DNA of 64,000 nucleotides, from assembly GCF_000746525.1 (NCBI RefSeq), contig NZ_CP009048.1:2845501-2909500 (forward strand). The letters are read 5' to 3'. This DNA comes from Pseudomonas alkylphenolica. GTDB taxonomy: Bacteria; Pseudomonadota; Gammaproteobacteria; Pseudomonadales; Pseudomonadaceae. Made by a program: the position numbers and the translations under genes. Position 1 is the stretch's first letter; each line of letters begins with the position of its first letter. Below, one piece after another: positions 39,975 to 54,106 of the stretch. Below the pieces are notes generated by a model, which saw nothing but the letters and a program-made list of their open reading frames with translations, made no database searches and was not told where the DNA came from.

Positions 39975-40649
39975 ACCCCCTCCCCCTTATACCAGACCCT
40001 GGTTCGTACCCAGGCCGTGTCGGTACAGAGCGCCCAGCAGGTCGAAGCCACCTGGAAAGCCGCCCGCGCCGATCGCGCCCGTGCAGACGCCGGGCTCATG
40101 GCGGCACGCCGCCAACTCGATGTGATCGACAGCCAGCGTGGTCAGGCCCAGGCCGCCCTGCAACAGGCCCAGGCCGAGCGAGAACAGGCCCTGCTCAATA
40201 TCGGCTATACCGAATTGCGCGCCCCGGTGGATGGTTATGTGGGCAACCGTCGCGCCCGGGTTGGCGCCTACGCTGCCGTAGGCAGTCAACTGCTCTCGGT
40301 TGTGCCGGCAAAGGGCCTGTGGATCGACGCCAACTTCAAGGAAGACCAGTTGGCGCACATGCAGGTGGGGCAAGCGGTGAGCATCCGCGCCGATATCCTG
40401 CCCGGTCGTGAGTTTCACGGTCATATCGAAAGCCTGGCGCCTGCCACCGGGGCACAGTTCAGCGTACTGCCGCCGGAAAACGCCACCGGCAACTTCACCA
40501 AGATCGTCCAGCGCGTACCGGTACGGGTACGCCTGGACAGCGTTGATGCCGACTTCGGTGCGCTGCGCCCGGGGCTGTCGGTGGTTGCCCAGGTCAATAC
40601 CCGTGACGCGCCGCAACCGAGCGATGTTGCGCTGGCAAGCCGGCCATGA
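39975..40649 (+). pseudogene. HlyD/EmrA-type membrane-fusion protein, N-terminus missing
   Basis: The homology starts near RTQAVSVQSAQQVEATWKAAR, that is in the alpha-hairpin, then runs through the lipoyl/beta-barrel part (ELRAPVDGYVGNRRARVGAY, LWIDANFKEDQLAHMQVGQAV) to the normal end. The inner-membrane anchor and first half of the lipoyl domain are absent (about 225 of the usual 350-390 residues). The stop overlaps the start of the MFS gene (ATGA). Not functional as an adaptor. Confidence 0.75.
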
Positions 40650-42210
40650 GCAGCCCCCTGCCCACACTCAGCACGGCGCAGAAAGTCGCCGCCTTCGCCA
40701 GTATGTGCGTCGGCATGTTCATCGCCCTGATCGACATCCAGATCGTTTCCGCGTCGCTCAAGGATATCGGCGGTGGCCTGTCGGCCGGTGCCGACGACAC
40801 GGCCTGGGTGCAGACCGCCTACCTGATCGCGGAGATCATCGTCATCCCCATGTCCGGCTGGCTCTCACGGGTGATGAGCACACGCTGGTTGTTCGCCGTA
40901 TCGGCCGCAGGCTTTACCCTGACCAGCCTGCTCTGTGCGTTGGCATGGAACATCCAGAGCATGATCGCCTTTCGCGCCTTGCAAGGCTTTCTCGGCGGTT
41001 CGATGATCCCGCTGGTATTCACCACGGCCTTTATGTACTCACCGGCAAGCAGCGGGTGATCGCCGCCTCGACCATTGGCGCCATTGCCTCGCTGGCCCCG
41101 ACCCTGGGCCCGGCAGTGGGCGGCTGGATCACCGATATCGCCTCCTGGCACTGGCTGTTTTACATCAACCTGGTACCCGGCCTGTTGGTTACCGTAGACG
41201 TGCCGATGCTGGTCAAGGTTGACCGGCCCAACCTCGCGTTGCTCAAGGGTGCTGACTACCTCGGCATGCTGCTGATGGCGCTGTTCCTGGGCTGCCTGCA
41301 GTACACCCTGGAAGAAGGACCGCGCTGGAACTGGTTCAGCGACATCACCATCGTCATCACTGCCTGGATTGCCGGCATCAGTGGCGTGCTGTTCATCTGG
41401 CGTTGCCTGGACATTGCCGAACCCATCGTCGACCTGCGCGCCCTGGGCGATCGTAACTTTGCCCTGGGCTGTCTGTTTTCCTTCGTCACCGGTATCGGCA
41501 TTTTTGCCACCATTTACCTGACTCCCCTGTTTCTAGGACACGTGCGTGGCTATGGCGCGCTGGACATCGGCCTGGCGGTGTTCTCCACCGGAGTGTTCAA
41601 GCTGCTGGCGATCCCGGTGTATGCCATGCTGGCCAACCGCATCGACCTGCGCTGAATCTTGATGCTGGGGCTGAGCCTGTTTGCCCTGTCGATGTGGGAC
41701 TTCTCTGCCATTACTCATGACTGGGGCGCCAAAGAGCTCCTGTTACCACAGGCAATCCGCGGTTTTGCCCAGCAAATGGCGGTTCCGCCGGTCGTTACCC
41801 TCACCCTCGGCGCCCTGGCCCCTGAGCGTCTGAAGCTGGCATCGGGCCTGTTCAATCTGATGCGTAACCTCGGCGGCGCCATCGGTATCGCTGCCTGCGC
41901 CACCGTGCTCAACGACCGCACCAACCTGCATTTTCTGCGGCTGGCCGAGCATCTCAACAGCCGCAACGAAGTCATGAACAACTGGCTCGAGCAATTGACC
42001 GTCAACGCCCAACTGCTCGGACAAAGCAGCCTCGATGCCAGTCAGTCGGCACTGCATCAACTGTGGGCGCTGACCTGGCGGGAAGCGCAAACCCTCACCT
42101 ATGCCGACGCTTTTCTGATGATCATGGCGTGCTTCGTGGTGACCACTTCGCTGGTGCCGTTGATGCGTAAAGTCCAGCCGCCGAGGCAGCCGTCCGCTGA
42201 CGCTCATTAG
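40646..42210 (+). pseudogene. DHA2-family (EmrB/QacA) MFS drug exporter, frameshift plus nonsense
   Basis: Three consecutive open segments make up one 14-helix DHA2 transporter. Segment 1 (40646-41059) has MFIALIDIQIVSASLKDIGGG; the frame shifts near 41038-41045 (TTAFMY | LTGKQRVIAAS); segment 2 ends at a TGA at 41653-41655 where homology predicts Trp (IDLR-stop-ILMLGLSL); segment 3 runs to 42210. The size and order of helices are otherwise complete, so the decay is recent. It was coupled to the EmrA-like gene upstream, which is also broken. Confidence 0.8.
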
Positions 42211-42296: not shown

Positions 42297-42595
42297 CTGG
42301 GGTTGGGATGTTGAGGTTGTGGGCTTATCCATTTTGTATGGCGATGCTGCCGGCCCCTTCCGCCCTCACGGCGGCCTACTTTCCTCTTGGGGAAAGTAGG
42401 CAAAGCCGCTCGCTCCTGCATCCGGCCCTACGCTGCGCTCCGGGTCCCTTCGCTCCGGCACCTTCCGGGACCACGCGGCCTACGACTTGCTTCGCCAAGT
42501 CTACGGCTCGCGTTCTTCGGCTACGCCGAAGGTGCTACGCACTGGCCCCTACAGGCACCTCCACTCAGCCTTCTGAAGTCGCAGTCCGCGGCGCC
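42297..42595. repeat. Large inverted repeat, left arm
   Basis: About 300 bases, imperfectly complementary to 42789-43093. Both arms hold local palindromes (gcctacttt...aaagtaggc; cttcggctacgccgaag) and repeated GC-rich codon-like sequence. ORFs drawn through it are not genes; this element type is known to produce false 'hypothetical proteins' in pseudomonads. Confidence 0.75.
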
Positions 42596-42675
42596 TGCAC
42601 TTGCGTGCATGAAGAGCAAGAGCAAGGCTTTGAAGCGGGATTTTCCCGCGATGCGAGGTAACTGGCAGGTCGATA

Positions 42676-42740
42676 TCGCGGGGCAAGCCCGCTCCCACCG
42701 GGAGACCAATTAACCCGGTGGGAGCGGGCTTGCCCCGCGA
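42676..42740. repeat. REP pair at the centre of the large inverted repeat
   Basis: Perfect 27-bp inverted repeat (tcgcggggcaagcccgct... and complement) around an 11-base loop, nested between the two 300-base arms. Same core as 36757-36832. Confidence 0.85.
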
Positions 42741-42788
42741 TGACATCCTGGCTCCGCCAGAATCAGATTTCGAAGATGCGTCAGCACA

Positions 42789-43093
42789 GGCGCCACCCGT
42801 AACTTTGCGACTTCAGGAGGCTGAGCGTAGGTGTCTGGAGGGGGCTGGTGCGTAGCACCCTTCGGCCTTAGCCGAAGTTCGCGAGCCGTAGACTTGGCGA
42901 AGCAAGTCGTAGGCCGCGATGCCCCTGGAAGGCACCGGAGCGAAGGGACCCGGAGCGCAGCGTAGGGCCGGATGCAGGAGCCAGCGGTTTTGCCTACTTT
43001 TTCCAAGAAAAAAGTAGGCCGCCGTAAAGGCGGAAGGGGCCGGCTGCATCGCCACACAAAATGGATAAGCTCACAACCTCAACAACCCAACCC
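42789..43093. repeat. Large inverted repeat, right arm
   Basis: Reverse complement of the left arm with scattered mismatches and small indels; ends in a ccaaccc tandem repeat near 43085-43104. Confidence 0.75.
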
Positions 43094-44777: not shown

Positions 44778-45242
44778 TCAGTTCTTGGCCTGGCTCAGCT
44801 TGGTGAACAGCTCGGTAGGAACCGGCTTGCCGTTGGAGAGGTACTGGTTGCTGCGGAACGTGTAGACCTCGCCCTCGGAGAGAAAACCGTCCTTGTTGCT
44901 GTCCATCGCGGTGAATTCAGCGCCGCCCTGCGGTGCCACCGTCAGCAGCTCCTTGAGCGAGACCCGACCGTCGTCGTCAGTGTCGGTGCGAGCGAAGGAG
45001 GCATCGCCGCATTTGCCTTCACCACACTTGCCTTCGGCGGCCTTGGTGCTGCTGGTTGCTGTAGCGCCACATTTGCCCTCGCCACATTTGCCTTCAGCGG
45101 TCTTGTCGGCGGCGGCCAGTTGGTAGCCCTGAGGCAGAGCCTCCACGGCGAAAGCGGCGGACGATACCAGGTTCAAGCCGCCGGCCAGGGCGACAGCGAT
45201 CAGGCCAATACGGGTCTTGCCAGGGAGCTGGGTACGGGACAT
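44778..45242 (-). CDS. bufA: Bufferin/HvfA-type RiPP metallophore precursor fused to EF-hand pair
   Basis: 154 residues from ATG 45242 (GGAG seven bases before it). Signal peptide to about 32 (AAFA). Two copies of EGKCGEGKCG at residues 50-59 and 70-79 (Cys 53, 58, 73, 78), the Cys motif processed by MNIO enzymes. Then two canonical EF-hand loops, D87-x-D-x-D-G92-x-x-S-x-x-E98 and D114-x-N-x-D-G-x-x-S-x-x-E125. After export the modified peptide should bind copper or another soft metal in the periplasm, while the EF-hands should bind calcium. Precursors in this family are usually short and low-complexity; a fused calcium-binding domain is the notable part. Confidence 0.85.
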   Translation of the reverse strand: MSRTQLPGKTRIGLIAVALAGGLNLVSSAAFAVEALPQGYQLAAADKTAEGKCGEGKCGATATSSTKAAEGKCGEGKCGDASFARTDTDDDGRVSLKELLTVAPQGGAEFTAMDSNKDGFLSEGEVYTFRSNQYLSNGKPVPTELFTKLSQAKN

Positions 45243-45575
45243 GGTGTTTCTCCGGATACAGTGCGGCCAGGCCGCGCAGGTCATGCCACAAGGGCGTTGT
45301 AACCCTGGTACGAGGCGCCAGGGCTTACCTCGTTTGGGTGTGGCCATTTCGCCACGGCCATGTGTCCGTGACGTATCCATAGGCAGGTACATTTGTATGC
45401 GAATCTGCGAGCCACGACGTACGGATACAATGTGATACGTCTAGCGCGCCAGCACCTGGTAATTCTGCCAGGTGAAAAAAAATCGAATTCATGTGAGCGT
45501 AAGTCGAAGCACAGCGGTCAGCCCCACACAGAGCGCACGAAGGCTGATCAATGATCTTCAACGCAAGGGACTGAC
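45243..45575. other. Divergent promoter region of bufferin operon and TcB gene
   Basis: 333 bases, AT-richer than the neighbours. No supported gene. A GGGTTACAAC box about 60 bases before the precursor start resembles the -35 of some ECF-sigma promoters but a matching -10 is not clear. Confidence 0.35.
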
Positions 45576-48500
45576 ATGAACGATCAAGCACAACTGAGCG
45601 TCAATCCACCTGCGTTGCCCAAAGCTGGCGGTGCTATTCAAAGCATTGGCAAGGGCTTTGGCGGCGTGGGTACCACCGGTGCCGCTTCGCTGGAATTGCC
45701 GTTGCCCATATCCCCTGGACGCGGCTTTGCCCCGGCGTTGGGGCTGGGCTACAGCAGCGATGTCGGCAACAGCCCGTTCGGGATCGGCTGGCGGATGACC
45801 ACCGACGCCATCACCCTGCGTACAACCAAAGGTGTGCCGACTTACGACGGCAATGACCAAGTGGTTGGCCCCAGCGGTGATGTGTGGATGGCGGAGCGCA
45901 CTGAGAGCGATGGCAAGCCGATCTCCAGAGTGGCTAACAGCTACAACGGCGTGAAGCTGGATGATCACACCGTGGTGCGTTACTGGCCCAGGGTCGAGGG
46001 TGGCTTCGATCTGATCGAACATTGGTCGAACACGGCAGACCCTGTAGGGTTCTGGCTGATCCACGGGGCCGATGGCAGCTTGCATCTCTATGGCAAAAAC
46101 AAAAACGCGCGCCGTGCCGACCCGAACGACGAAACGCACGTCGGCGTGTGGATGATCGAAGAAAGCCTGAACACCCGCGGCGAACACATCGTCTACGAGT
46201 ACAAGCCTGAACAAGACCTCCCTGCCCCGCCACAGCACCGCGACTACCGTGCTCAGTGCTATCTGGAACGTGTGTGCTACGGCAACCAAACGGCCTATCC
46301 GCACCTGTATGCCTGGAGTGCCGACAGCTGGAAAAGCCAGCATTGGCACTTTCAGCTGGTGTTCGACTATGGCGAACGCAGCGCCGACCTTGAGCAGGTA
46401 CCGGCCTTCGAGGAGCAGCAGCCATGGTCCGAGCGTAGCGATCCGTTCTGGAACTATGCCTACGGTTTTGAGCTGGGCACCCGGCGCCTGTGCCGGCAGG
46501 TGCTGATGTTCCATCACTTTCCCAACGAACTGGGGCCAGATCCGGTACTGGTCCAGCGCCTGTTGCTGGAACACCGGCCAAGCCCGTTGGGCTACAACCA
46601 TTTGACCGCAGCCCACGTCCAGGCTTACGACAGCCTGGGCCAGGTCGAAAGCCGACCGCCTTTGGAGTTCAGCTACAACGCATTCGATCTCAGTGCGCAG
46701 CATCAGAGCTGGGTAGCGTTTCCTGAGATGCCCGGGCTCAACGACGGCCAGCGCTACCAGTTGGTGGACCTGTACGGCGAAGGCATGCCGGGAGTGTTGT
46801 GCCGCTACGACAAGGGCTGGTATTACCGCGAGCCGTTGCGTGGCAAAACCGGCGGCAATGAGGTGAGCTACGGTGACTGGCAACCGTTGCCACGTGTTCC
46901 GCTTGCCGACAGCCGCAAACCTGTTCAGCAGTCCCTCACGGACCTGACGGGCGACGGCAAACTGGACTGGCTGGTGGCCCGGCCCGGCATGGGCGGTTTC
47001 TTCACCCTCGACCCTGACCGAACCTGGTCAAACTTTGTGCCATTCGATGCCTTTCCCATCGAGTTCTTCAATCCCTTGTCGCAAATGACCGATCTGCAGG
47101 GAGGCGGCCTCAGCGATCTGGCATTGATCGGCCCCCGCAGCGTGCGTTTGTACGGCAACCGTCGCGAGGCAGGGTTCGCCGGGGGCCTTGATGTGCCGCG
47201 TCGGCAAAACGACGATGACCTGCCGCTGCTGAGCAACTTGGCGACTGAGCTGGTGGCCTTCGCAGACATCATCGGCAGCGGGCAACCGCACTTGCTGCGC
47301 ATCCGTCACAATGAGGTCAAATGCTGGCCGAACCTGGGCCATGGGCGGTTCGGCAAGGGATTTGTGCTGTGTGCCTTGCCGTTCAAGTATGCCGAGTTCA
47401 ATGCGGCACAAGTGTTACTGGCCGACCTCGACGGCTCCGGCGCCGCCGATCTGATCTACCTGACACCTGATTGCATACAGGTGTTCATGAACCGTTCCGG
47501 TAACGGCTACGACCTGTCCCCCATCGAGCTGCCCTGGCCCGAGGGTGTGCGCTACGACCCACTCTGCCAGGTCACTACCGCCGACCTGCAAGGGCTGGGG
47601 TGTTCCAGTCTGATCCTGACCGTACCGCACATGGCCCCCCGACACTGGCGCTACGACTTCGTCAAGGCCAAACCCTACCTGGTGAACGCCACCTGCAATA
47701 ACATGGGTGCCACCAGCCATGTCACCTACCGCAGTTCGGCCCAGGAATGGCTGGACGAAAAGCAGGAGCAGATCGACGCCGGGGTGGAACATCCGGTTTC
47801 TGAACTGCCGTTTGCCATGCACCTGGTGAGCCGGCAAACCCAGCTCGATGAGATCACCGGCAACCGCCTGACTCAGGGGTTCAAGTACCGCGGCGGTTTC
47901 TACGATCACTTCGAGCGCGAGCTCCGGGGCTTTGCCCTGTTGCTGCAGACCGACACCGAAGCTACGCCTGCTGAACGTTCGACAGCGGGCTTCACCGCGC
48001 CGATCCTGAGCAAAACCTGGTTCCACACCGGAAAAGCCATCGACGCGTCGCGCAGCGGTTACTACGCAGGCGATCCGTTGGCCGTCCCGTTGAAATCCAC
48101 CGTATTGCAGAATTACCACTTCAACGATCGGTCGGCGTCGCCGCTCTCCGACCCCGACGTAGAAACCGCCCGCGAAATAGCCAGAGCCCTGAGTGGCAGG
48201 GTAATGCGTACGGAAGTTTTCGCTGCGGATGATGCCCCTGCTACTGCCGTGCCCTATGCGGTCAACGAGAGCCGCTATCTGGTACGGGTACTGCGCACCA
48301 AGGGTAAGCATCAGCCTTACGCCGTGCTGCAACCGCTGGATCTGGAAGCGATCAGCTACCAGTACGAACCGCTCATCAGTGATGACCCGTTATGCCAGCA
48401 CACGCTCAATCTGGAGTGGGACGAATACGACGCCTATTGGTGCCTGAGCACTGCCGTCACCCTACCGGACGGCTGTACCACCCGCAGCCTCGACATCGAC

Positions 48501-49475
48501 TATCGGACATTCCTGCCGGCAGCCATCGAAGATGCCAACGCCAATATTCAGGAAGCCCGCTATAGCGCCTTCGGTGAACCGCTGGTGACCAGCTTCTACG
48601 GGACGGAGATGGGCGAGCCTGTGGGATTCGATCCATTGACGAGCTATGTACCACCGCCAGACCGCGATCCCGTCATCGCCATCCACGATCCGAAGTTAGC
48701 CATCGGCCGTTTCGCCAGCGCCGGCTTCTGGGACACCTTCAGCTGGATGGGGCGGATCTCCCGAACCTCCCCACCCTCTTCCGAGTGGCTGGACTGGGCC
48801 CGGGCCGCAGGCTTTGTATTGCCCAGCGGACACCTCTGCAGCAGAGCCCGGCAGCACCTGGAAGGCCTGGAAAACCTTGATGTGAACGCAACGATCCTCA
48901 AGCAACAGATCGACGCGGCACAGCGTGAGCCGGTGTACTCCGTCGGCCTGCTGGCGGACCGCTACCCAGGCGATGAAGAGATGCAAGTACGGGTGAGCAT
49001 TGCCTGCCTGGACGGCTTCGGCCGCACGCTGCAAACCAAGCAGGAAGTCGAACCTGGTAAGTCCTGGTTGGTCGATGAAAACGGTGAACTGCTGCTCCAG
49101 GACGACGGTACGCCGCAGGAGGCTGAGGTACCACGACGCTGGCGGGTCAGTGAGCCGGTGGAGTACAACAACAAAGGCGAAAAGGTCCGGGTGTACCGGC
49201 CGTACTTCGCCGACCAGCCGCGTTATATCAATGATCGCTCGATGCGTCAGCATGCCTATCACGATCAACAGTTTTATGACGCTGCAGGCCGTCCCACTGA
49301 AACCGTGCTAGCGAAGAAAATGCTCCAGGGCAACCCGCCCGAGCTAAAGTCGCTACGCCGGGAAATGTGGTATTGGGTTTGGAGTACGGTTGCCTTTGAT
49401 GAGAATGACCTGTTTGATCCGCCGCCGGCGCAACCACAGCCCTCGCCTTGGTTGAAGAACACAACCAGGCATTGA
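45576..49475 (+). CDS. Insecticidal toxin complex B subunit (TcB/TcaC/SpvB-like)
   Basis: 1299 residues, AAGGGA before ATG. N-terminal SpvB domain (LPKAGGAIQSIGKGFGGVGTTGAAS, GYSSDVGNSPFGIGWRM), FG-GAP-type beta-propeller repeats around 380-660 (DLTGDGKLDW, DLDGSGAADLIY), TcdB mid-domains with RDYRAQ-like strands, and a late RHS-shell part (AGRPTETVLAKKML). The end REMWYWVWSTVAFDENDLFDPPPAQ parallels the natural C-terminus of TcaC/TcdB, so the protein looks complete though shorter than the 1480-residue norm. It needs a TcC partner to enclose a toxin; none is encoded next to it. Confidence 0.88.
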   Translation: MNDQAQLSVNPPALPKAGGAIQSIGKGFGGVGTTGAASLELPLPISPGRGFAPALGLGYSSDVGNSPFGIGWRMTTDAITLRTTKGVPTYDGNDQVVGPSGDVWMAERTESDGKPISRVANSYNGVKLDDHTVVRYWPRVEGGFDLIEHWSNTADPVGFWLIHGADGSLHLYGKNKNARRADPNDETHVGVWMIEESLNTRGEHIVYEYKPEQDLPAPPQHRDYRAQCYLERVCYGNQTAYPHLYAWSADSWKSQHWHFQLVFDYGERSADLEQVPAFEEQQPWSERSDPFWNYAYGFELGTRRLCRQVLMFHHFPNELGPDPVLVQRLLLEHRPSPLGYNHLTAAHVQAYDSLGQVESRPPLEFSYNAFDLSAQHQSWVAFPEMPGLNDGQRYQLVDLYGEGMPGVLCRYDKGWYYREPLRGKTGGNEVSYGDWQPLPRVPLADSRKPVQQSLTDLTGDGKLDWLVARPGMGGFFTLDPDRTWSNFVPFDAFPIEFFNPLSQMTDLQGGGLSDLALIGPRSVRLYGNRREAGFAGGLDVPRRQNDDDLPLLSNLATELVAFADIIGSGQPHLLRIRHNEVKCWPNLGHGRFGKGFVLCALPFKYAEFNAAQVLLADLDGSGAADLIYLTPDCIQVFMNRSGNGYDLSPIELPWPEGVRYDPLCQVTTADLQGLGCSSLILTVPHMAPRHWRYDFVKAKPYLVNATCNNMGATSHVTYRSSAQEWLDEKQEQIDAGVEHPVSELPFAMHLVSRQTQLDEITGNRLTQGFKYRGGFYDHFERELRGFALLLQTDTEATPAERSTAGFTAPILSKTWFHTGKAIDASRSGYYAGDPLAVPLKSTVLQNYHFNDRSASPLSDPDVETAREIARALSGRVMRTEVFAADDAPATAVPYAVNESRYLVRVLRTKGKHQPYAVLQPLDLEAISYQYEPLISDDPLCQHTLNLEWDEYDAYWCLSTAVTLPDGCTTRSLDIDYRTFLPAAIEDANANIQEARYSAFGEPLVTSFYGTEMGEPVGFDPLTSYVPPPDRDPVIAIHDPKLAIGRFASAGFWDTFSWMGRISRTSPPSSEWLDWARAAGFVLPSGHLCSRARQHLEGLENLDVNATILKQQIDAAQREPVYSVGLLADRYPGDEEMQVRVSIACLDGFGRTLQTKQEVEPGKSWLVDENGELLLQDDGTPQEAEVPRRWRVSEPVEYNNKGEKVRVYRPYFADQPRYINDRSMRQHAYHDQQFYDAAGRPTETVLAKKMLQGNPPELKSLRREMWYWVWSTVAFDENDLFDPPPAQPQPSPWLKNTTRH

Positions 49476-50060: not shown

Positions 50061-53000
50061 TCAAGCAACATAGAACAACTTGTTTTCGATGATTTTGGTC
50101 GGGTCCTTGAGCGCTTCTTGTTGTTCCTCAGGACTTGCAATGAACATGCTGCCGATGCCCTGCAACATAACGGCAAAATCAAGGGGTCGGGAAAGCCGCT
50201 TGCACTTTAAATTGATTGCTATTCGACGTTTAAAATGACTAAGGCATTTAATCTCCCAGGAGAATCCCTCTTTAGTGAGATCTTCGCTTTCCCCCAGTGC
50301 CGGCGTAACCTCGAGCTCTTCGGGCGCCTCAGCGCCCTCCATCTCCCAGTTCAACTCGATTTCTTCGCCTATCAACACGCACTTCTCACTGGGTTTGAGT
50401 TGCAGTTGGTGGACCCTACCCAGCCTCAACAACAGGAATCCTGTGGTCATGTCCATTGGCTGGCCATCGAGAAAAAAATCGAATTGTTGCCAAGGTACTG
50501 TCGGTATCGCCCGCACGTTGAATACGCGTTGACCCTCCGCCAGGTTATAGGGCGCGTCGAATTTAGCGGTGACTGGATGATTTTCGGCCTTGATGGGACT
50601 GTACTTATAGCGGGCCCATCCCTCCTGATCGGTTAACACAGTTTCAATACTGGCATCAGCTTTTTGCCAGGTCACGGCAACACCATCGGCCGGCCCCTTT
50701 GTCTGTGCATTTAGCAGACGGACAGCCAACTCGATGGTTTCTCCCTGCGGTATAACAGGCCAGTGCTCCGGCTGCTCGGCCCCAGCATCGTCAAGCTTGA
50801 AGTGCCCCACTACGCACGGGAGAATATACGGGTCGGCGTCGTAGATACTCTGCAAGACGATCTGCAGATCACCGTTCTCTGCATTACCGCTGACAACCTC
50901 GAATGCTTTGCTGATCAACTGGGTTCCATCTTGCTCTGGTTCGGTTGGCAGCAGTTCAACCTTGAGCCGGCTTGCCTCCTCAGCGTCCTGCCAGTAAGCA
51001 TAAACACGTGAACCTGGATAAACATCGTCCCCTCCCCAGCCGCAAGCGGGATCTACCGCTAACTGCAGACGATGCTTCGTGCCCTTTCCCCGGCAGATAG
51101 GCACTTTGCCATGAACCAGGAATCGTGCTTGCCGACCCTCCATCGTTATCTCGGGGGCCCTCTCCTCTAGCAGCAGTGGCTGCAAAATCAGCTGGACCTC
51201 AACACTGGTGAAATGCATCGCACCTTCGCGCCACGGCCAATCCCCGGAGGCACCGACTTGGGGCGTTTCGGGGTTGTGACCGGATGCAAAACGCAACTCA
51301 AATGCGGTTTCGTTAGGCTCGAAGCGCCTAAAGTAAGGTAGTAAAGGGTCGGGAGGGTGATTTCGCCTGCCGAAAAACCAAACCAGGTTTCCCCCCAGGT
51401 GCGGGCATGGTTTTGCAGCATGCCGGCATCCAGCTTGAACTGCTGGGTGACGCGCGCGAGGCGGCTCAGTTGCGCGAGCTCGACCAGGAGACCCTGAAAC
51501 ACAGTGTCTTCTTCTGTGTCATCTCCACTCATGGTTATCCGGCGCAGGCTGGAACGACTCAGATTCGGGATGTTACCCGACAGAGAAAGCGCTCTGGCAA
51601 CGGCGAGCAAATTGTAGGCGCTGTACTTGGCCCAGAAGATCAGGGGCAATACCAGCTCTGCACTCAAAAGCAGATAATCCGCCAGACTTTCCTGAACGAC
51701 TGCTCGTTGCGCGGCGCGAGCCCGTAGTATGATCGCGAGAAGCGTATCGAGGATTTTATGCTTTTCCTGATTTACAGGCACAATTGAAGCATTCGTCGTG
51801 CGTTTACGCGATTGCCGGGTATAACGCGGCTCATTACAGTCGGGATCTTTTTTTCCGGCGTACAGTTCCTCCAGCATCGCGTCGATGATGCTTTTGGCAC
51901 TGTTCTCATAATCTTCTTCTGCGGCGGCTACGCCATCTTTCACGATGCCATCGAGGTCGACAAGATCGCGCAAGCGACACAGCCAATCAGGGGTAACTAT
52001 CTGCTCCTCATCATGGCCTGCAGGAGGCCCTTCGATTGTGCTCGGCACCCCCGCCTCCAGCAAGGTGGTGCGCGTAATCCTTACCGGCTCCAGGCGGCTG
52101 TTCAACTCGTTCAGCAGTTTTATTTCTGCATCGGTTGAGACCGCCTGCGGTGTGCGCAGGTGCTGAATGAGCCAGACAACATCAATGTCATTATCGCGGC
52201 ACCACTGCACACATGAACTTAGCGCTACCAAGGTGCCCAAAATATCGGCGTAGCCGAACACTTGAAAGCTTACATTAAGCGGAACCCCAGCCACTTGGCG
52301 GACCAGCGATTCGCCGTCCTCATCGAGCACTTCAATCAGCGCCAGAAGGACGATGGGGTGAAGTTTCAGACAGGACGCCAGGCTGGTGATCCGGTAAAAG
52401 GACGAGATTACCGGCAGCGATCGCTTCAGTACCTTGCCTTCCGTGGCCATCGCAATCAGGCGAGCCAGGTATTGGAAGGTTTCTTGACTCAAACCCAGCG
52501 CGGCACAGATCTGCTGCACCGTTTGCCGACCCCGCTCATCTACGGGCTGAATATCAAACTCGCTGTCATCAAGCACAAGCGGATTAGGGAACAGTGAGCG
52601 GCCGTTGAAAATACGATCAAACTGCGCCTGCTCCGCCCCTGCCCCGTAAGGTGAAAGCTGTTCCAGCCATGCAGCAAATTCCTCAGCCTTGACGCCATAG
52701 CGTTGGCGATAATCTTGAAACACGCCCAGAGCACGTAAAGTGTTGACCGTCATCCAGGGAGAGTCGTTACCCCCTCCTTCTGCCGTGATGGCCGCCATGA
52801 CCAGACGATCGGTTTCTCTGAACGACAAATTCATCCAGCGGCTAAGGCGAATCATCCGATTGAGACGGTCTGCCCGATCTTCGCTCAGGTTGGTCAGTTG
52901 GTGGGGTGGGACCCGTATGCCATCAGGGCTGTCTTCCTCTGATGTGTTGATCGTTATGGCGGGTTGCTTGCCGCCGTTAATAAAAACCGCGCCAAACCTG

Positions 53001-54106
53001 GAGGGGTCGACATCTGTGTCTACAGGGAGCACATTTACCGATGCGCAAGGGGCCTGGGTTTTCACTGCAAACAAAGCATCCAGGTCGAGACGAGGCACTT
53101 CCGTCGCAAGGCAAAAATTATCGGCCCGTTGCAGTTCAGCCAAATTGTCGATGCCATAGTTCTTGGCAAAAAAGTCGGCTTGCTCTTCAGCAACGTCGAC
53201 AGGATGCAGCTGGTGAGTACGCGGGTCACTGCGACGCCGACTGTTGCCACCTACAAAAATTGGCGATTCGATAAGCAAGGCTCTTTTGCGCGCGCCAAGC
53301 CCGGCACTTTGTTGCATGGCTATATCCGATACAGGCGAATGTTTGCCTTTACGAATAAAATACGGATAGTCACCATCAACATGCCGGCCGATCTCGCCCA
53401 GTGTTAACGCGGGCACCGCGGACGTCAGAATCCCATTGATTTGATCTTGCCAGCGCTCATAGGGTAACAAAAAAGGATAACGCGCTTGCGCCAGCGCAAC
53501 ATCAACATCCTCCCCCTCTTGTTTGCCCTGCAGATATTTATGTATCGCACGCTCCAATACATCGCTGACAATATCCAGCGTTGGCACCAACTCATTCATT
53601 GCCGGCGTATCTATCATTTTGCTGGGCAGGTCATCTCTACGATCGGAAATAACAAGTTTTGAACCCGCGTTGCTACCTTCCCGTTCAAGCTTCAGTATCT
53701 TGCAGTACAGCGCTCGCAAGTAAGCCACCGGCGATGTGGAGGCTTCAATCGAGCGCGGTAACGCCATCGCATCCCAATCGATCAGAAAGCAGTTGTTGTA
53801 GGTAGGTCCGCCCACCAGCGCCGACAGACCGTGGCGCTGCCTGAAAGCACGCCGGACACCACCGCTCAGTGCGTTTTCCCTGAACTGACGTGCCACGGCG
53901 ATGCCGACGCTGCGCGCCATGCCAGATAGAATGCGTGCATCGGTGATATGCAGTTGACTGTGTTTTTGCAGCAGCTCTTCTGTTGATGCATTCGCCAGGG
54001 CGGTGAATGACCCTGCTTCAGAAAGAACTGACTGCAATGCGGGTGATTGGGACAATGACCATTGTTTTAGCCATTGGTTATCAAACGTCAGCTCAATATC
54101 TTCCAT
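50061..54106 (-). pseudogene. TcA/TcaA-like toxin complex subunit broken by one frameshift
   Basis: Frame 1 (54106 to about 51320; the open reading frame runs 972 codons to 51188) has the VRP1/TcA N-terminal motif VGGPTYNNCFLIDWDA and an alpha-helical shell. Frame 2 (to 50061, 411 codons from the first possible start 51296, but coding further upstream as RRFEPNETAFELRFASGHN) continues with a beta-rich part including an Ig-like domain (PVIPQGETIELAVRLLNA, EGWARYKYSPIKAENHPV). Joining YYLTL to RRFEPNE by one inserted base near 51330 gives a continuous protein of about 1350 residues, TcaA-like in size. No TcaB/pore half follows. Sequencing error is an alternative explanation of the shift. Confidence 0.7.

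Follow-up and report, generated by a model that had tools for sequence, protein, structure and literature searches.

The calcium-binding protein EfhP (PA4107) of Pseudomonas aeruginosa is described, in the available portions of the papers devoted to it, as a protein of 155 residues with EF-hand loops at positions 88-99 and 115-126 and four EGKCG repeats, encoded in an operon that includes a DUF692 and a DUF2063 gene; it binds Ca2+ with a micromolar Kd, and the apo-protein is molten and folds with Ca2+ (PMC4053335, PMC9132961, PMC11559002). For truncated EfhP, a PA4107 fragment was cloned without the signal peptide, beginning at residue 33, and expressed in E. coli (PMC9132961), and because it was made from this fragment alone, the protein used for the Ca2+ measurements was probably unmodified. 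The EfhP phenotypes on record in these sources, as far as they are available, relate to calcium, iron and virulence and do not involve copper. The 2014 paper also mentions that in P. fluorescens efhP lacks both neighbour genes (PMC4053335) and is cited for the DUF692/DUF2063 neighbours in PMC8719888 and PMC8692599; in its accessible part, PMC13390493 mentions later EfhP papers in the references only. The regulator BfmR recognises the motif GATACAnnGC or TACAA-N3-GATACA in the bfmR, PA4103 and PA4107 promoters and, according to the accessible text, binds and activates efhP-PA4106-PA4105, efhP being the most BfmR-activated gene (PMC4148453, PMC8025907).

A separate literature, consulted in its available portions, deals with EGKCG precursors of Haemophilus influenzae, Neisseria gonorrhoeae and Fontimonas, whose Cys residues are converted to 5-thiooxazoles by an HvfBC-type pair, each Cys shifting the mass by about -4 Da in the cases for which masses are stated; the modified products bind copper (PMC13097082, PMC13419390). 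In the accessible part of their study, Antoine et al. (2025) describe Buf_EGKCG precursors of a second type that carry two C-terminal EF_hand_5 domains, propose that they act in Ca2+ homeostasis, with EfhP as the example, and report that unlinked precursors exist and that single maturase pairs may serve several precursors (PMC12452194). A test of Cys modification in EfhP or the EF-hand subtype was not found in the available portions of this mostly non-subscription literature. Here we analyse a stretch of 64,000 nucleotides from Pseudomonas alkylphenolica (the window), which carries an efhP-hvfB-hvfC operon, in all likelihood orthologous to PA4107-PA4106-PA4105.

Results

An EF-hand-fused EGKCG precursor with HvfBC-type maturation genes

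The preliminary description of this DNA had proposed that one chain combines duplicated EGKCGEGKCG blocks with two EF-hand loops, and both are present in the 154-residue ORF, whose boundaries it had given exactly (ATG at 45242, stop at 44778; Table 1). An upstream in-frame ATG at 45392 would lengthen this ORF; the start at 45242 is level with those of 12 aligned relatives. By inspection, the N-terminus has a hydrophobic core and a putative AFA cleavage site, and this signal-peptide-like start runs on into an LPQGYQLA segment. Both Cys blocks read AEGKCGEGKCG and hold all four Cys residues of the protein. Each is thus a double repeat like the minimal modified substrate, of which, in the available text, two repeats are modified and a single repeat is not (PMC13097082). 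The two EF-hand loops are spaced 27 residues apart, and when the 75-residue tail of the precursor was shuffled 200,000 times, two strict loops never arose. Profile searches with Pfam and NCBIfam placed the protein above the cut-offs of EF-hand_5 (PF13202, 29.1 bits against 25.9, in two stretches), EF-hand_1, EF-hand_6 and KCGExKCG_twice (NF050137, 49.9 bits against 19.5), and below that of the full-length HvfA model NF050188 (35.8 bits against 95).

Table 1. Features of the operon in the window, and loci of relatives whose EF pair is flanked by EGKCG blocks
Feature	Location	Strand	Basis and remarks
EfhP/HvfA-type precursor gene, 154 aa, EF-hand fused	44778..45242	minus	ORF and family matches
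Predicted Sec-type signal peptide, residues 1-32, ending AFA	45147..45242	minus	inspection and EfhP analogy
LPQGYQ segment, residues 36-41 (L..GY motif)	45120..45137	minus	follows the signal peptide and precedes the Cys core
First EGKCGEGKCG block, residues 50-59	45066..45095	minus	sequence and NCBIfam
Second EGKCGEGKCG block, residues 70-79	45006..45035	minus	sequence and NCBIfam
EF-hand loop 1, DTDDDGRVSLKE, residues 87-98	44949..44984	minus	Pfam, conservation, structure model
EF-hand loop 2, DSNKDGFLSEGE, residues 114-125	44868..44903	minus	Pfam, conservation, structure model
hvfB, MNIO (DUF692) maturase, 282 aa	43862..44710	minus	PF05114, 345.1 bits
hvfC, DUF2063/RRE partner, 245 aa	43132..43869	minus	PF09836, PF22106
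Candidate BfmR-type box, TACAATGTGATACG	45426..45439	plus	184-197 bases upstream of the start codon; one mismatch to TACAA-N3-GATACA
Flanked EGKCG-EF-EGKCG loci	L128-L144, L146, L149, L150, L153, L154, L156		

The AlphaFold2 model of the precursor has block-mean pLDDT values of 75-89 over the EF pair (residues 81-140) and below 50 over residues 1-79. Among the matches listed by Foldseek against the PDB, most titles are calmodulin-like or other EF-hand proteins; none reached E 0.001 and the fold match is statistically weak, since the best had E 0.063 (a polcalcin). Lanmodulin-type lanthanide sites were also considered and set aside: the NCBIfam LanM model gave 21.3 bits against a cut-off of 135, and the window loops have T/S at position 2, where Pro marks lanmodulin. 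Lanmodulin does appear in a PDB sequence search with the precursor, at E 3.8e-4.

The neighbouring genes bore out the earlier assignment to an HvfA/bufferin-type MNIO operon, as hvfB and hvfC lie on the same strand as the precursor gene and matched their families above the cut-offs. The MNIO protein scored 428.4 bits with the HvfB family NF003818 (cut-off 360) and 275.2 bits with the BufB model NF050167, under its cut-off of 310; HvfC scored 272.8 bits with NF050145 (cut-off 142). hvfB starts 67 bases past the stop of the precursor gene, and hvfC overlaps the end of hvfB by 8 bases. The P. alkylphenolica genome has one MNIO gene and one EGKCG gene.

A member of a described class of MNIO substrates

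Comparison with EfhP revealed a close correspondence: 154 against 155 residues, loops at 87-98 and 114-125, four EGKCG motifs, the DUF692-DUF2063 gene order and a BfmR-type promoter box. On these features we take the gene in the window for a likely orthologue of efhP, the comparison being with the coordinates published for PA4107; the published efhP primer stretch matched in none of the 398 genomes searched. The precursor also agrees with the Buf_EGKCG/EF-hand_5 chimaeras, having a short N-terminal EGKCG domain after a signal peptide or TM helix (in the window protein a predicted signal peptide), then two C-terminal EF_hand_5 domains, and MNIO and PME-type 1 neighbours. We found no essential difference from these chimaeras, and the window protein is one of them. 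The fusion, which the preliminary description had taken for an unusual design, has already been published, as the available portions of the sources show (PMC12452194), and EfhP, the best-known member, has been under study since 2014 (PMC4053335). The window precursor is therefore a member of a described kind of MNIO substrate and not a new design, and what it adds is comparative detail.

Likeness to other systems is more partial. The captophorins (HvfA oxazolin, FonA fontiphorin and gonophorin) share the EGKCG repeats and HvfB/HvfC-type maturation genes, and HvfA shares the signal peptide, which for the window protein is predicted; in contrast, EF-hands go unmentioned in the available portions of the captophorin papers, and their products are demonstrated 5-thiooxazoles whereas the window product is only presumed to be one (PMC13097082, PMC13419390). 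The bufferins Buf1 and Buf2 have the same MNIO plus DUF2063 operon logic but another Cys architecture.

Conservation of both halves and two architectures among relatives

A protein search from the window precursor with an E threshold of 0.001 found 1,174 relatives, of which 120 are listed, and one from a P. delhiensis relative found 1,698, again with 120 listed. Among the matches listed, two strict EF loops occur in 116 of 120 and, for the new ones of the second search, in 111 of 113, and some records are titled "HvfA family oxazolone/thioamide-modified RiPP metallophore". The named loci are the best 80 of 327 confirmed stretches; because the query contained EF-hands, they under-represent EF-less rows. 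An [LM]..GY segment is present in all 120 and all 113 proteins among the matches listed (233 in all), and in 66 of 71 EF-hand and 10 of 10 EF-less genes of the best 80 of 327 loci. Although L..GY is conserved, we rejected it as an essential recognition site and claim no recognition role for it, because single-Ala variants of FonA ahead of the core were all tolerated in the accessible data (PMC13097082).

That most DUF692-associated precursors might carry EF-hands, a possibility raised in the preliminary description, does not agree with a genus sample in which MNIO genes occurred in 122 of 149 genomes and an EGKCG gene in 62 of 149. The EGKCG loci fetched from this sample had EF-hands in 23 of 30 cases and none in 7; hvfB lies upstream of the precursor in G033, G034 and G098, and precursors are unlinked in 5 genomes. 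Between the named loci and the genus sample, G515 looks the same genome as G002, and G522 as G088, since their contig coordinates agree.

In 28 relatives with EGKCG blocks only before the EF pair (N-only), down to 49% identity to the window protein, D87, D91, E98, D114, G119 and E125 are invariant, so that positions 1 and 12 of both loops never vary; Cys 58, 73 and 78 are likewise invariant, and D118 and Cys 53 nearly so. In a second architecture, EGKCG blocks both precede and follow the EF pair. Within the best 80 of 327 loci, 48 of the 71 EF-hand genes are N-only, like the window gene and the published form, and 23 are flanked (Table 1), the latter mainly from Lysobacter, Luteimonas and Pseudoxanthomonas, with four from Pseudomonas (L134, L142, L143 and L150). 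Fifteen flanked relatives, with a mean column identity of 36%, all keep positions 1, 5, 6 and 12 of the two loops unchanged, together with a Cys block before and another after the EF pair. The EF-hand half and the Cys half of the precursor thus both look selected, to judge from alignment. In the model of a flanked relative the EF pair is confident and both sides have low confidence. The flanked EGKCG/EF-hand architecture was not found described in the available portions of the literature. Two loci hold two EF-hand EGKCG genes close together, namely L084 (4417-4881 and 6001-6465) and L119 (5926-6381 and 8093-8713).

DoxX and the region downstream of hvfC

The preliminary description had noted that no DoxX-type gene lies near the operon and had suggested a separate subfamily on that ground. 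The observation was correct, since DoxX (PF07681) has no match in the 64-kb window and the three matches of the genome lie elsewhere; the suggestion was not upheld. An iterated profile detected DoxX within about 6 kb of 27 of the 52 linked and 0 of the 19 unlinked EF-hand precursors (best 80 of 327 loci), and the DoxX of two relatives and of the P. alkylphenolica genome were confirmed with Pfam. The 27 include the nearest relatives of the window (L082, L083 and L085), in which DoxX lies on the opposite strand downstream of hvfC, which rules out its absence as a subfamily mark. The missing DoxX looks like a local loss of linkage. At a distance of about 260-263 kb from the operon, the same genome has a BfmRS-like pair grouped with DoxX (itself at about 263 kb) and an ORF that matches nothing in Pfam; the regulator and kinase are 74.8% and 56.2% identical to the pair of Lysobacter L116. 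In P. aeruginosa, by contrast, the EfhP operon is close to bfmRS.

Between hvfC and an MFS gene, where relatives have DoxX, we observed a large imperfect inverted repeat (42300-43093), with 170-nt arms that are 91% complementary, further arms of 57 and 38 nt and short palindromes mid-way. The MFS-type transporter itself (40646-42210) has a frame that looks interrupted, in two pieces in different frames that each match MFS_1 (Pfam), the second below the cut-off. On the other side of the operon, 45576-49475 (plus strand) encodes a protein with an SpvB/TcaC-like N-terminus, presumably a Tc-complex part, and 51188-54106 (minus strand) matches VRP1 and looks like part of an insecticidal Tc complex.

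BfmR-type boxes upstream of linked and split loci

The box TACAATGTGATACG upstream of the precursor is the sole match in the 64-kb window, with 0.22 expected, and a second GATACA lies at 45255; since a match also turned up in 22 of 100 shuffled versions of the window, the single box is weak when taken alone. Comparison across loci was more informative. GATACA is found upstream of 19/19 linked precursors from Pseudomonas and of 18/18 unlinked precursors (best 80 of 327 loci), and it also precedes 16/16 hvfB genes located in trans; about 1.4-1.7 sites are expected for each of these three groups and 38-59 were seen. It occurs in only 7 of 34 other EF-hand genes (33 linked genes plus L094), 1 of 10 EF-less genes and 5 of 144 random windows. 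For these counts start codons were set by rule of thumb and upstream regions of about 330 bases for trans hvfB and 300 bases for the others were used; the unlinked group comprises 18 of the 19 unlinked genes, L094 being counted with the 33 other linked genes. The trans hvfB set is L192-L207; L191, with a precursor of its own, was excluded. We also considered whether TGGCATGA, seen in the alignment of upstream regions, might be a sigma-54-like promoter, but dropped this reading as no -12 element was visible by eye.

Linkage was defined by tblastn hits of hvfB or hvfC in roughly 12 kb around the precursor. By this measure hvfB or hvfC lies within about 6 kb of 52 of the 71 EF-hand precursor genes and not of the other 19 (best 80 of 327 loci); unlinked L092, L094 and L117 lie near contig ends. 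The 19 unlinked genes (18 loci in 17 genomes) are accompanied by an HvfB elsewhere in all 17 genomes, 65-74% identical to that of the window. In 16 of the 17, no GKCG-coding stretch was detected within up to 1.5 kb on each side of the trans HvfB gene, the exception being L191. L192-L207 are thus hvfBC pairs with no adjacent EGKCG gene, with GATACA upstream and with an EF-hand precursor elsewhere in the genome. From the shared boxes, split precursors and maturases appear to form one regulon, which would support maturation in trans. The combination of an unlinked precursor, an HvfB elsewhere and BfmR-type boxes on both was not found in the available portions of the literature.

Phylogenetic analysis of MNIO proteins (97 rows, identical HvfB rows being entered once) separated eight buf-type rows from 89 EGKCG-type HvfB rows by a 100/100 branch. 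A branch of 77 rows (100/99) unites the window protein with 51 linked, 20 trans and five EF-less rows, but does not include L147, an EF row from Nitrosomonas. P. resinovorans and Pseudomonas sp. BN102 supply the nearest relatives of the window HvfB. Mapped on this tree, presence and absence of EF-hands (53 and 16 rows, with 28 left uncounted) require at least six changes, and the two architectures, N-only and flanked (31 and 22 rows), require three. L050 and L052, with HvfB inside the EF-hand branch, have EF-less precursors that are very short and carry a single EGKCGEGKCG block. In L088, L096 and L175-L177 the order is reversed, the precursor gene coming last (hvfB-hvfC-precursor), and DoxX lies upstream of hvfB.

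Discussion

We consider it probable that an EfhP-type operon makes a thiooxazole-containing copper sequestrant of the envelope, produced by HvfBC and joined to an EF pair that folds on Ca2+. The part of this explanation computed here comprises gene content, motifs, conservation, the promoter box and comparative genomics, and by analogy with work on relatives we infer the modification, copper binding, folding with calcium and activation by BfmR. A BfmR-type response regulator would turn the operon on, and HvfB with HvfC would oxidise the four EGKCG Cys residues in the cytoplasm to 5-thiooxazoles, at about -4 Da each. The signal peptide may aid recognition of the precursor (in the accessible text, HvfA with its signal sequence is modified far better than HvfA without it; PMC13419390), and the modified product would leave via Sec. 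In the calcium-rich periplasm the EF pair, a molten globule without calcium, would fold around two Ca2+ ions into a stable domain bearing a flexible copper-binding arm. The main job of the product would be sequestration of copper (metal) in the envelope, with calcium serving mainly folding and stability and only possibly metal binding.

Calcium might do more than this. If Ca2+ on the EF pair altered the affinity of the thiooxazole arm for copper or its release, the protein would be a two-metal sensor, a reading that finds some encouragement in EF ligand positions kept about as strictly as the Cys blocks, in the shift of EfhP conformation with Ca2+ reported in the available text, and in the flanked blocks of 23 of 71 genes (best 80 of 327 loci), where Ca2+ folding could join the two arms. 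We nevertheless think it unlikely, because the Cys arm is one-sided in the window protein and 48 N-only relatives and disordered in the window model, and because Ca2+ in the periplasm is probably at or above the external level, according to the accessible text (PMC9132961), so that the EF pair may be always full. A broader scheme adds the split loci to calcium dependence: the EF pair would leave the chain unfolded in the cytoplasm for MNIO modification and Sec export, periplasmic Ca2+ would snap it shut and position the thiooxazole arms (on both sides in flanked proteins), copper binding would depend on calcium, and precursor and maturase, at two loci in a large Pseudomonas branch, would be joined only by the BfmR-type regulon and trans maturation. 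This scheme we hold to be rather doubtful.

The published view of EfhP as mainly a calcium sensor or buffer, with unmodified Cys residues sensing iron or redox state and the MNIO genes incidental, draws on the Ca2+-specific binding of recombinant protein from the PA4107-only construct, on Ca2+-related phenotypes and on the Fe-sensing hypothesis of the EfhP authors for EGKCG, as found in the available sources. It seems quite improbable to us, since EGKCG is the substrate motif of HvfB/FonB in the accessible text (PMC13097082, PMC13419390) and hvfBC lies beside 52 of 71 EF-hand genes (best 80 of 327 loci), the others having HvfB elsewhere in 17 of 17 genomes. Least credible is an EF pair whose function does not depend on calcium and which only anchors the protein or caps and stabilises it passively. 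EF-less EGKCG precursors are common, and the EF domain seems dispensable because five EF-less rows fall within the EF branch of the HvfB tree, but a cap would be expected to lose the acidic positions 1 and 12, which are invariant down to 49% identity, and we regard this reading as very improbable.

The operon of P. alkylphenolica joins three literatures, those on calcium sensing by EfhP, on activation by BfmR and on EGKCG thiooxazole copper peptides. The split loci and the flanked architecture offer cases for studying trans maturation and calcium-dependent assembly. If native EfhP is a thiooxazole RiPP, as we favour, the published calcium binding would need to be repeated on the mature form.
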